64,000 nt of DNA from an uncultured Christensenellaceae bacterium (GTDB lineage: Bacteria > Bacillota > Clostridia > Christensenellales > Aristaeellaceae), in the NCBI GenBank assembly GCA_905234985.1, contig CAJOJQ010000004.1:51592-115591 (forward strand), given 5' to 3'. A program made the translations under genes and the position numbers. The stretch's first letter is position 1; every line of letters starts with the position of its first letter. Below are positions 4,221 to 13,631 of this stretch, in pieces. A model generated the notes under the pieces. It had not been told where the DNA came from. It was given only the letters and a program-made list of their open reading frames with translations, and did not search any database.

Positions 4221-5912
4221 ATGAAATGGATTCACAGTGTACAGGCCCCCTGGCTTCTGTCCGACCGGCCCGACGCGTTCACCCTCCGCTGCTGGGCGGA
4301 GCCGGGGGCGTTTGTTTCCATGCGCGCGTATTACAGCGATCCCTATGATTATTTGCCCGGGCCGGGAAAAAAGCTGAATTGGGCGGCGGCGGAGATGGCG
4401 CTGCTGGTCAGAACCGAGGACTATGAGGTGTGGACGGGGGAAGTGCCGGTGCCCACCCGCAAGCTGGCCTATCATTTCCGGGCGGAGGACGGCGCGGGGC
4501 GCGTCTTCTGGCTGGGCCGGAAAGGCATGGCCGACCGGCAGAGCGAAACGGACAATTTTCGCATCGGGTATCATTTTGGGGAAGACCGGCTTCCCGCGTG
4601 GAGCGGCAAATCCGTCTGGTATCAGATTTTTCCCGATCGCTTTTTCGGCGGCCCGGAAACGGGCGGTTTTGTGCCCACCACGAAAAACGTGTGGGGCGGC
4701 ACCCTGGAGGGGATTCGGCAGAAAATCCCGTATCTTCGGGAACTGGGCGTCACGGGCGTTTATTTGAACCCCGTCTTTTCCAGCCCGTCCAATCACCGCT
4801 ACGACACGCTGGATTACACAAGAGTGGACGCGCGGCTCGGCACAAACGAGGATTTGATTCGGCTGGCGGAGGAACTGCACTGCGGCGGCCTTCGGCTGAT
4901 GCTGGACGGCGTTTTTAACCATGCCAGCGACCGGCATCCCTTCTTTCAGGACGTGAAGGCCCGGGGGGAGCGCTCGCCCTATCGGCGCTGGTTTTTGATT
5001 CATGATTTGCGGGCGCTGATGACGGAACCGACAGAAGCGCTGACGCCTGAACGGATGAAAAAAAATCCGCCCTACGAATGCTTCGCCTACGCCGCGTGCA
5101 TGCCCAAGTGGAACACGGAGCTTCCGGCGGTGCAGGACTATCTGATCGGCGCGGCGGAGCAATGGACGCGGGCTTTGAACCTGGACGCGTGGCGGCTGGA
5201 CGTTCCAGACGAAGTCAGCCCCGCCTTCCTGCGCGCTTTCCGAAGAAGGATTCGGGCGATTCAGCCGGAATGTCTGATCATCGGCGAAATCTGGACGGAC
5301 CCCACCGGCTGGACGCAGACCGGGCTGTTTGACGGCACCATGGATTATCCGCTCTATGACGCGGTTTCCCGTTTCCTGCTCAAAGGGGATATGGACGCTT
5401 TCGCCTTCTGCGAAGCCATGAACCGGCGGGAAGGGCTGATGACCCGGAGCATGCAGCGGAACCAAATGCTGTTTATCGGCAATCACGACCTGCCCCGGTG
5501 CCTGACTCTGGCAGGGGGAGACGCTGAACGGATCCGGGCAGCCTGGGCCTTGCTTTGCCTCATGGACGGCGAACTGAACCTGTATTACGGGGATGAACGG
5601 GCCATGCAGGGCGGGGAAGACCCCGCCAACCGCGGCGTGATGCGGTGGGACGGGCGGGACGCGGCGCTGGAAATGCAACGGTTCACCCGGGAAACGCTGG
5701 CGCTGCGAAAGCGCTTGCTGTCCTCCGGCTTGACGGACGTACGCTTTGAAGCGCTGCGCCCGGATACGGCCCGCATCCGCTTGATTCGCGGGCATACGGA
5801 ATACGCGCTCTTCCTGACGGGAGGACGGGAAACGCGCCGCCTGCCGGAACCGCCGGACGGGCGGTTGCTGCTGGGCGGAGAACGGTTTGCCTTATGGGAA
5901 AAATCGGTCTGA
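4221..5912 (+). CDS. GH13 alpha-glycosidase / neopullulanase-like
   Basis: GH13 motifs GVFNH, LDAWRLDVPDEV, IIGEIW, IGNHD. Confidence 0.92.
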   Translation: MKWIHSVQAPWLLSDRPDAFTLRCWAEPGAFVSMRAYYSDPYDYLPGPGKKLNWAAAEMALLVRTEDYEVWTGEVPVPTRKLAYHFRAEDGAGRVFWLGRKGMADRQSETDNFRIGYHFGEDRLPAWSGKSVWYQIFPDRFFGGPETGGFVPTTKNVWGGTLEGIRQKIPYLRELGVTGVYLNPVFSSPSNHRYDTLDYTRVDARLGTNEDLIRLAEELHCGGLRLMLDGVFNHASDRHPFFQDVKARGERSPYRRWFLIHDLRALMTEPTEALTPERMKKNPPYECFAYAACMPKWNTELPAVQDYLIGAAEQWTRALNLDAWRLDVPDEVSPAFLRAFRRRIRAIQPECLIIGEIWTDPTGWTQTGLFDGTMDYPLYDAVSRFLLKGDMDAFAFCEAMNRREGLMTRSMQRNQMLFIGNHDLPRCLTLAGGDAERIRAAWALLCLMDGELNLYYGDERAMQGGEDPANRGVMRWDGRDAALEMQRFTRETLALRKRLLSSGLTDVRFEALRPDTARIRLIRGHTEYALFLTGGRETRRLPEPPDGRLLLGGERFALWEKSV

Positions 5913-10187: not shown

Positions 10188-11549
10188 TTACTGGTGCTTG
10201 GCCCAGATTTCCTGCGCTTCGGCCCAGAACAGGTCGGCAGCGGCCTGAGCGCTTTCAAACTTGCCCTCGGCCAGACCCTGGAAGTAGGTCTTCTTGAGCG
10301 TGTCGGAGATTTCTTCGTTGGCGGCAGGCTCGGCGGGGCTGGTGTTGGCGGCGTCCGCGAAGGAACCGATCAGGTCGATGATGGTGTACACCTTGCCGGT
10401 CACTTCGTTGGTCTTTTCCGTGTCAGCCTTCAGGGCGGCCAGCACGTCGCTGTTGATGGACACGCCGCGCTCGCAGTTGAGGATCATGTTGGCTTCCACA
10501 CTGTTGATGAAGAAGTTGATGAAGTTGGCGGCCATTTCCTTCTTTTCGGAACCCTTCCAGATGCTCATCTGCTGGGAGGAGCGCACCACCATGCCGCTCT
10601 GGCCGTCATGGGACACGCGGGGAATGGTGCAAAGATCGAGGGTGATGCCGCTTTCGGCGGCCACGTTGCTCAGCGCCTGGAACTGGTTGGAGGACAGCAT
10701 GATGATGGCGGAATCACCGTAGGCGATCCAGTCCGCTTCGATGTTGGAGCCGATTTCGTTCTGGATGCCGTAGTCGGCGATGGCGCCTTCCTGCTGCAGG
10801 GTGGTCAGCAGATCGAACAGGTAGGCCAGGGGCGCGGTGTCGCCGTCAAAAGCGAAGCCGGTGCCGTCCATGGTGTAGAAGTTGTAGCCTTCCTTCCACT
10901 GGGTGAACACGGAGTAGGCCAGGGAGTTGTATTCCAGGGTGGTGACGGCGGGATTGCCGGTGGCCGCGTAGATCTTGCGGCAGGCGTCCGCGAACTCTTC
11001 CCAGGTCCAGGTGTCGGTGGGATAGGGCACGCCGGCCTCGTCGAAGAGGGCGGGATTGTAGGCAAAGCAGCGGGCGTTGGTGCCGTTGGAAATACCGGTC
11101 ACATCGCCGTTGGCCTGGTTGACGGTGGTGGCGATCATGGCGGGGCCGATGGCGGTGGTGTCGATGATGCCCGCGTCAATGTAGGCGTTCAGGGGTTCGA
11201 TGGTGTCGTAGTAGGTGAGCCAGTTATTGCCCATCTGGAACACGTCGGTCAGGCTGTTCGCGGCCATCTTGGCCTGGAACTGGGTCCAGTAGGTACCGCC
11301 GTCATAGTACTCGAATTCGACCTTCGCGCCGGTCTTTGCTTCCCACAGGTGAATGACTTCTTCGGTCCTCTTGGCGCGGGTATCGGAACCCCACCACATG
11401 ATGCTCAGGGTCTGGCCCGAATAGTCGGGGAACACGTAGCCTTCGGCGTTTACGTTGTTCCAGCCTTCGGCCTTTTCTTCGGCGACGGCAGGAACGAACA
11501 GGGTACACAGCATGGCAGCGACCAACAGAATCACGACGGTTTTCCTCAT
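10188..11549 (-). CDS. Sugar ABC transporter extracellular solute-binding protein
   Basis: Signal peptide MRKTVVILLVAAMLCTLFVPAVA; SBP fold LSIMWWGSDTRAKRTEEVIHLWE; start set at internal Met after AGGAGG. Confidence 0.92.
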   Translation of the reverse strand: MRKTVVILLVAAMLCTLFVPAVAEEKAEGWNNVNAEGYVFPDYSGQTLSIMWWGSDTRAKRTEEVIHLWEAKTGAKVEFEYYDGGTYWTQFQAKMAANSLTDVFQMGNNWLTYYDTIEPLNAYIDAGIIDTTAIGPAMIATTVNQANGDVTGISNGTNARCFAYNPALFDEAGVPYPTDTWTWEEFADACRKIYAATGNPAVTTLEYNSLAYSVFTQWKEGYNFYTMDGTGFAFDGDTAPLAYLFDLLTTLQQEGAIADYGIQNEIGSNIEADWIAYGDSAIIMLSSNQFQALSNVAAESGITLDLCTIPRVSHDGQSGMVVRSSQQMSIWKGSEKKEMAANFINFFINSVEANMILNCERGVSINSDVLAALKADTEKTNEVTGKVYTIIDLIGSFADAANTSPAEPAANEEISDTLKKTYFQGLAEGKFESAQAAADLFWAEAQEIWAKHQ

Positions 11550-11612: not shown

Positions 11613-11645
11613 ATTGTAGCAGTATTTCACCGCTTTGTCAATGCG
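11613..11645 (-). promoter_or_regulatory. Promoter of the ABC operon; left copy of the 33-bp direct repeat
   Basis: Minus strand CGCA-TTGACA-AAGCGGTGAAATACTGC(17)-TACAAT; identical to 13599-13631. Confidence 0.85.
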
Positions 11646-11728
11646 GGAGTTTGACAGTCCGAGAGCAGAAAAACAGCTTGAAAGCCTTATAGGGCTTATA
11701 TTTTTTTGTCAATTCCCGAATTTAATTA

Positions 11729-11757
11729 TTGAGTAATAGGCGTATTTATGGTATAAT
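11729..11757 (+). promoter_or_regulatory. Putative transposase promoter
   Basis: TTGAGT (11729-11734), 17-bp spacer, TATAAT (11752-11757). Confidence 0.65.
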
Positions 11758-11791
11758 ATAGGTAATTTCTACTTGGCAGGAGGAAGTCATC

Positions 11792-13528
11792 ATGCGGCTG
11801 CGAATCCAACGGACACAAAACGACGCACACTATTATGCGATAGAGTCCACATATTCGGAGGGGAAGCACTCATCAAAGGTAGTAATGAAACTTGGGCTTG
11901 AGTCGGAAATTCGGAAGGAACATCCAGAACCAGAGAAGTGGGCGCGGGAATATCTGGCAGAATTAACGAAGAAAGAAAAAGAAGAAGGAGGGGCCGTGCG
12001 GGTAGATTTCCATCCGCAGGAACAAATGAAGCTGGGAGAACAGAGCACATGGAATGGCGGATACCTGTTTCTACAGCAGATTTACAGCAATCTTGGATTG
12101 GACAAAATATGTGCGCAAATTGCCCGGCGTCATTCTTTTGATTATGATTTGAACAGCATTCTGAGCCGATTGCTGTACGGACGGATTCTACAGCCGGGTT
12201 CCAAGCTTAGCACATGTGAGTTTTCCGGGACGTTGCTGGAGAAACCGAACTTTCAGCAGCACCAGGTATACCGGGCATTAAGCGTATTAGCGGAAGAAAG
12301 CGATTTCATTCAGGCGGAACTTTATAGGCGCAGCAAAAAGCTCGGTGAACGGAATGATAAAAGACTCTATTATGACTGTACCAACTACTATTTTGAGATC
12401 GAGATGGAGGCGGACGATAAACAGTATGGACATTCCAAGGAAAATCGTCCGAACCCGATCATCCAGATGGGACTGATGATGGATGGAGATGGGATTCCGC
12501 TGGCCTACTGTATTCATCCTGGCAATACAAACGAACAGACAACCTTGCGTCCATTAGAACAGCAAATCATCCGTGACTTTGATCACAGGGAATTCGTGGT
12601 CTGCACAGACGCCGGACTGTCTTCCTCTGCCAACAGACTATTCAATTCCCTCAGCGGACGCCGCTTCATCACAGCCCAGTCGCTGAAACAGCTTCCCCAG
12701 ACTCTCCAGGAATGGGCGCTTTCACCAAAGGGGTGGCATTTGCCGGATGATCGTAAAGAATATGATCTGAATACGGTTCTCAGCGATGAAAAACAGTATA
12801 CCGCTTTCCACGACGCCGTTTTTGTCAAGGAGCAGTCCTACACGTTGAAAGACGTTCCGCAGCGCTTCATCGTCACTTTTTCCATAAAGTATATGGAATA
12901 TCTCCGCACAGTCCGCAGCCGTCAGGTGAAACGGGCACAAAAAATTATCGATGTGCCCTCCGATATGCAGAAGAACCGCCCAACTGACTGTAAACGTTTT
13001 ATCCAGCAGACCTTCCTGACCGAAGACGGAGAAATCGCCAATGCACACCAGGTTACATTGGACGTGGAGAAAATCGCGGATGAAGAACGTTTCGATGGGT
13101 TCTATGCTGTGGCTACAAACCTGGAAGACAGTGTACAAAAAGTCATCCGGATCAATCGCCGTCGCTGGGAAATCGAAGAATGCTTCCGAATTATGAAGCA
13201 CGAGTTCAAAGCACGTCCCATTTATCTCCAGCGAAAGGAGCGTATCCGCGCCCACTTCTTGACCTGCTTCCTCGCACTAACCCTTTACCGTTATCTCGAA
13301 AAGCAGTTGAAATGCCGCTTTACCGTGGAACAGATCGTCTCAACACTGGCTGATATGACTTTCCTTGAAATCCCTGGCTCTGGTTACGTCCCCTGTTATA
13401 CACGAACCGACATTACCGATGCACTTCATCACGCTTTTGGTTTCCGTACAGACTCCCAGCTAATCCCCATCTCCGCTATGAAAAAAATTTTTACATGTAC
13501 CAAAAAGGCAAATCAATTACTCAAATAA
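11792..13528 (+). CDS. IS1634-type DDE transposase
   Basis: DDE-type motifs LYYDCTNYYFEIE, VCTDAGLSS, RWEIEECFRIMKHEFKARPIYLQRKERIRAHFLTCFLAL. Confidence 0.93.
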   Translation: MRLRIQRTQNDAHYYAIESTYSEGKHSSKVVMKLGLESEIRKEHPEPEKWAREYLAELTKKEKEEGGAVRVDFHPQEQMKLGEQSTWNGGYLFLQQIYSNLGLDKICAQIARRHSFDYDLNSILSRLLYGRILQPGSKLSTCEFSGTLLEKPNFQQHQVYRALSVLAEESDFIQAELYRRSKKLGERNDKRLYYDCTNYYFEIEMEADDKQYGHSKENRPNPIIQMGLMMDGDGIPLAYCIHPGNTNEQTTLRPLEQQIIRDFDHREFVVCTDAGLSSSANRLFNSLSGRRFITAQSLKQLPQTLQEWALSPKGWHLPDDRKEYDLNTVLSDEKQYTAFHDAVFVKEQSYTLKDVPQRFIVTFSIKYMEYLRTVRSRQVKRAQKIIDVPSDMQKNRPTDCKRFIQQTFLTEDGEIANAHQVTLDVEKIADEERFDGFYAVATNLEDSVQKVIRINRRRWEIEECFRIMKHEFKARPIYLQRKERIRAHFLTCFLALTLYRYLEKQLKCRFTVEQIVSTLADMTFLEIPGSGYVPCYTRTDITDALHHAFGFRTDSQLIPISAMKKIFTCTKKANQLLK

Positions 13529-13535
13529 TCTTACC

Positions 13536-13585
13536 CCCAAAAACGCCGGAAAGCCACGTCTCGCTTGCTTTTCGGCGTTTTTGGG
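13536..13585. terminator. Hairpin terminator at the right end of the IS, possibly bidirectional
   Basis: CCCAAAAACGCCGGAAAGC ... GCTTTTCGGCGTTTTTGGG, 19-bp stem with one G-T pair, directly after the transposase stop. Confidence 0.75.
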
Positions 13586-13598
13586 TGTCAAAGATGGG

Positions 13599-13631
13599 AT
13601 TGTAGCAGTATTTCACCGCTTTGTCAATGCG
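13599..13631. repeat. Right copy of 33-bp direct repeat (candidate target-site duplication)
   Basis: ATTGTAGCAGTATTTCACCGCTTTGTCAATGCG identical to 11613-11645. Confidence 0.88.

Follow-up and report, generated by a model that had tools for sequence, protein, structure and literature searches.

The window, the whole stretch of 64,000 nucleotides that was analysed, contains a sugar ABC operon close to a LacI regulator; the operon genes encode a sugar-binding protein, two permeases and a GH95 enzyme. Upstream of the first of these genes lies an IS1634-family insertion sequence (IS) flanked by two identical 33-bp repeats (Table 1). Beyond these two copies, no further exactly repeated 20-mer is present in the 64-kb window. 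Each 33-mer holds a promoter on the minus strand that matches the consensus at 11 of 12 positions and carries TG one base ahead of the -10 element, and the left -10 lies 63 bp from the start codon of the solute-binding protein (SBP; ATG at 11547-11549), which has an AGGAGG ribosome site. At 1953-1955 bp, the IS falls inside the size range of the IS1634 family (1500-2000 bp). Since the left end of related elements reads ..CCCG, the CG of the 33-mer fits the IS end as well, and it probably belongs to the IS too, in which case the formal duplication is 31 bp. A possible inward terminator at the left end of the IS (11682-11697) folds no better than its shuffles.

Table 1. Features of the insertion and its surroundings in the window.
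Feature	Position	Strand	Remark
Left 33-bp repeat copy	11613..11645	-	native SBP promoter left to the operon (supported by conservation, activity inferred); single copy in the empty site of G025
Promoter elements, left copy	TTGACA 11636-11641; TACAAT 11613-11618	-	spacer 17 bp
Right 33-bp repeat copy	13599..13631	-	-10 abuts the right end of the IS; promoter directed into the IS
Promoter elements, right copy	-35 13622-13627; -10 13599-13604	-	
IS1634-family insertion sequence	11644..13598	+	end register common to related elements; 11646-13598 if the entire 33-mer is counted as duplication
IS ends			left CGGGAGTTTGACAG; right, read inward, CCCATCTTTGACAC
IS1634-family DDE transposase	11792..13528	+	578 aa
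Putative transposase promoter	11729..11757	+	TTGAGT-17-TATAAT, consensus match only
Strong hairpin, right end of the IS	13533..13588	strand-neutral	inverted repeat and fold; likely bidirectional terminator
Extracellular solute-binding protein (SBP)	10188..11549	-	first gene of the sugar ABC operon

A reading of the locus from sequence alone had proposed an IS1634-like insertion, and this assignment held: the transposase matches the NCBIfam IS1634 profile (NF033559) with 361.5 bits against a cut-off of 100. Residues D195, D273 and E462 are invariant, while the YREK motif is incomplete, with R458, E462 and K469 present and N455 in the place of the tyrosine. The right end, CCCATCTTTGACA, satisfies the family's end rule C-----YT through C1, T7 and T8, and the target repeat, 31-33 bp long and confirmed by an empty site, fits the long and variable type known from IS1549 and IS1634. 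A search by sequence returned no solved homologue of the transposase. The predicted structure (mean pLDDT 77) has Tn5 transposase as its best fold match (Foldseek E 1.7e-5) and shows no obvious polymerase-binding part. The element resembles the Tn5/IS4 type in predicted fold and in its DDE and R-(3)-E-(6)-K residues, but IS4 elements have repeats of about 7-13 bp and a full YREK motif, and the review describing them reports no promoter anchoring (PMC2266710).

No full-length copy of exactly this IS was found elsewhere in its own genome, which otherwise holds a diverged copy on contig C28 and an IS1634 relative on contig C39. The former (G000:C28, L009 98-1849; 43% protein identity, left end CCGGAAGTTTGACAG) lies at a contig end, and its duplication is unreadable because the contig stops there. 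The latter (L131) has an exact 89-bp duplication (2714-2802 and 4899-4987), with no clear -10 at the duplication edge. Viral contigs yielded no relative.

Whether the 33-bp repeats arose with the insertion can be judged from a genome of the same genus that lacks it. In G025, the SBP orthologue shares 99% protein identity and the corresponding site (L013 2925-2957) contains one 33-mer between flanks that are 95-97% identical. The repeats are therefore a true target duplication of 31-33 bp. It could be argued that the 33-mers belong to the element or predate the insertion, but nothing was found to support this apart from the CG that the left end shares, and the single-copy empty site, together with the different duplications around other IS copies, all but excludes it. 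The 33-mer also appears to be the native SBP promoter. A ATTGACAAA..TACAAT arrangement with equal spacing is kept upstream of the orthologous SBP genes of G025, G009, G023 and G016, even though the sequence farther upstream is unrelated in some of these four genomes. This is support from conservation, and promoter activity itself remains inferred. The sequence-only reading had described identical 33-bp repeats that read TTGACA-17-TACAAT on the minus strand, with the left copy about 60 bp upstream of the SBP start so that the operon keeps its promoter. These claims held with the same proviso on activity, and the duplication passed the comparison with a relative lacking the IS that had been proposed as its check, as did the proposed comparison with other IS copies, which shows that the 33-mer is not part of the element.

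That reading had further taken the sparing of the promoter to be a consequence of a long duplication. IS1634 transposases were searched in the class and then in the phylum, flanks and plasmid records were fetched and direct repeats were sought, with alignments anchored on the IS end 3' of the transposase. This gave 62 non-redundant insertions, composed of a discovery set of 34, on which the -10 hypothesis was formed, whose ends could be delimited and whose duplications, exact or nearly so, measure 29-1018 bp, and a second set of 28, gathered afterwards, with duplications of 13-325 bp. An 82-bp repeat (L040) was left out, because its location at contig ends makes an assembly artefact possible. 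Over all 62 insertions the duplications span 13-1018 bp (median 116) and reach at least 29 bp in all but one (61/62). The site statistics assume independence; several sites stem from one element in one genome, each with its own flanks.

The last six target bases at the anchored end proved to be TATAAT-like in the discovery set, with a match of at least 5/6 ending exactly at the junction in 18 of 34 insertions. The second set reproduced this (14/28 against 1.1% of positions in the same flanks, p ~ 2e-20), and in total 32 of the 62 junctions qualify where 1.3% would be expected. A -35 element accompanies the -10: TTGACA matches occur at a spacer of 17 in 13 of the 34 discovery insertions against 0-5 at other spacers from 8 to 29, and over all 62 the peak stays at 17 (19/62), with mostly 1-4 and at most 8 elsewhere. 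Among the 32 insertions with a -10 at the edge, a -35 matching at 5/6 or better lies 16-18 bp away in 13, against 2.6% at other intergenic TATAAT-like sites (p ~ 3e-12), and at 4/6 or better in 20, against 16% (p ~ 7e-9). If an offset of 0-3 bp is allowed, 29 of 62 score at least 9/12 against 1.4%. Clear examples read TTGACA-17-TATAAT (L202, L208, L213) or TTGACA-17-TATATT (L236, Carnobacterium plasmid NZ_LN846931) directly up to the junction. The -10 is still present in 13 of 28 IS copies without a detectable duplication. It was not found on either strand at the variable end, which serves as an internal control, nor at any of 12 junctions of IS256 in similar genomes, a small control with only six delimitable insertions.

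The comparison shows a recurring geometry. At these junctions the IS end that follows the transposase gene is joined right after the last base of the -10, and it is the same IS end each time, so oriented that the promoter reads into the IS, against the direction of the transposase. The left end attaches at a variable distance upstream, 31-33 bp here and 13-1018 bp in relatives, and the whole stretch between the anchored and the variable end is duplicated. With the edge of the -10 anchored and the stretch duplicated, the gene-side copy normally keeps -35, -10, spacing and leader, and in 53 of 62 insertions the longest open frame that follows on this side is read in the direction of the promoter. 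That a long duplication spared the promoter thus held, but not as an accident: the -10 edge is the place where this clade inserts, with a constant IS end. Random insertion, with the promoter spared by chance or by selection of survivors, could nevertheless be defended, since long, variable direct repeats are established for IS1549 and IS1634 (8-514 bp depending on the copy, with no mechanistic model for the variable length; PMC2266710, 2008) and since promoter-sparing survivors would be favoured. However, selection cannot explain a junction fixed at one base position, a constant IS end and a fixed promoter direction, because any point farther downstream would spare the promoter equally, and the independent set of 28 also speaks against it. 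We therefore regard random insertion as very unlikely. Insertion at the -10 edge is very likely, on comparative evidence, a rule for this clade of elements rather than a lucky case, and we consider it very likely (roughly 0.85) that the window element reached the SBP promoter by a promoter-directed route, in the absence of data on contact with RNA polymerase.

The right promoter copy had been said to fire into the IS. Its orientation held. The hairpin at the right end of the window element is very stable (-32 kcal/mol, z -5.7, with a T run), and the right ends of other elements fold strongly too, for which no shuffle control was made. Judging from the predicted fold, this hairpin resembles a bidirectional terminator and would likely halt transcripts from the right copy. 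As it lies within about 60 nt, productive antisense transcription from the IS-side promoter is unlikely.

At the variable end, a G precedes the junction in 28 of the 38 elements with a CCG left end. Microhomology was considered here and set aside: only this final G matches, and A or T usually stands in front of it, so the G more probably reflects a second target preference than pairing.

The pattern has limits. About half of the junctions lack a -10 of at least 5/6 exactly at the edge, some being offset by 1-3 bp. In the transposase tree it is strongest in the clade with a CCCG left end, to which the window element belongs, while other branches (L083, L167, L131 and the G462 element) show it weakly or not at all; there is also a lineage with short duplications (L045, 5 bp, TCAAT). 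Elements from Rhodococcus (L239, 93 bp) and Aliarcobacter (L241, 682 bp) have long repeats too, without a -10 evident by eye; the near-exact repeat in Aliarcobacter (plasmid NZ_CP099557) copies part of a Crp/Fnr regulator gene. In another genome (L172, G703 C1:496072-504572) two copies of one element are neighbours, the second inserted close to the first, and their long duplications overlap, with matches of 145 and 46 bp. A second empty site comes from ermC plasmids: CTTGTGCTATAAT occurs once in IS-free plasmids (L243/L244; NZ_CP097641, NC_016054) but twice in a Ligilactobacillus salivarius plasmid (L238, NZ_CP089852), where it flanks a relative. This insertion is exactly at the -10 of the leader promoter, which has a poor -35 match. 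Since only 13 bp were copied, the native -35 is lost on the gene side, which shows that the promoter is not preserved in full in every case.

How the transposase finds the -10 edge can be conceived in two ways. It is possible that it simply reads an AT-rich, TATAAT-like motif, such intergenic sites being mostly promoters, without any contact with transcription. In favour of this main rival reading, the target logo is most sharply defined at the -10, AT-rich targets are known from other transposases, IS1634 targets have been described as AT-rich tracts (PMC2266710), and the ermC insertion combines a clear -10 with a poor -35. Against it, the enrichment of the -35 (13/32 versus 2.6%) indicates that the whole promoter matters, and elements ending in TTTGACA, TTTTGCA or TTTTACA all have TTGACA-17-TATAAT targets, so that the end sequence does not dictate the choice of target. 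(The last two ends also rule out homology between the IS end and the -35 as a targeting principle.) Direct motif reading is not excluded, but we lean against it.

The bolder scenario is that a widespread IS1634-family clade targets the promoter opened by RNA polymerase, with one strand transfer in the bubble at the -10 and another farther upstream at a point that varies. For the promoter-directed route in general, the inference is that the transposase would sense an active promoter, through RNA polymerase/sigma or the opened -10 region, and the junction, between -7 and -6, would lie within the transcription bubble. The 3'-OH of the right end would attack at the -10 edge, the left end would attack the opposite strand at an upstream position that usually follows a G, and the duplication would result when the long gap is repaired. 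Such a mode of insertion may have been favoured because it spares the host gene. We would give the bolder scenario slightly less than an even chance; if true, it would account for the long, variable repeats of IS1549/IS1634 as well as for an insertion that is harmless to the downstream gene.

Promoter insertion as such is known from TnGBS, ISLre2 and the ISKra4 group (Mutator-like p-MULT 3 and 4), which insert at sigma-A promoters and mostly keep one orientation, their right end toward the promoter (PMC3942029). The window element shares the promoter insertion and the right end toward the promoter, but its transposase family is unrelated, and whereas the insertion points of those elements lie about 15-17 bp upstream of the -35, its junction borders the -10 on the downstream side and the duplication takes in the promoter. 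It works like promoter-targeting elements, yet it is no member of the TnGBS type, since IS1634 does not have a Mutator-like transposase and the junction is at the -10. With IS1549 and IS1634 it shares the transposase family (NF033559) and long, variable direct repeats, whereas the promoter link, the anchored end and the fixed orientation are unreported for them in the literature searched; the IS1634 family at large has repeats of 5-6 bp (PMC2266710). None of the open-access literature searched joins long repeats with promoter targeting or describes a -10-anchored insertion that duplicates the promoter.

For genomes without transcript data, IS1634 junctions mark likely promoters, and the repeat-flanked promoters they leave behind may break short-read assemblies. 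For the family, the end anchored at the -10 is the first handle found on a repeat variation from 8 to more than 500 bp, all of which resides at the other end. With this finding, the promoter-directed elements would also gain a second, unrelated transposase family, one whose logic is to copy the promoter rather than to avoid it.
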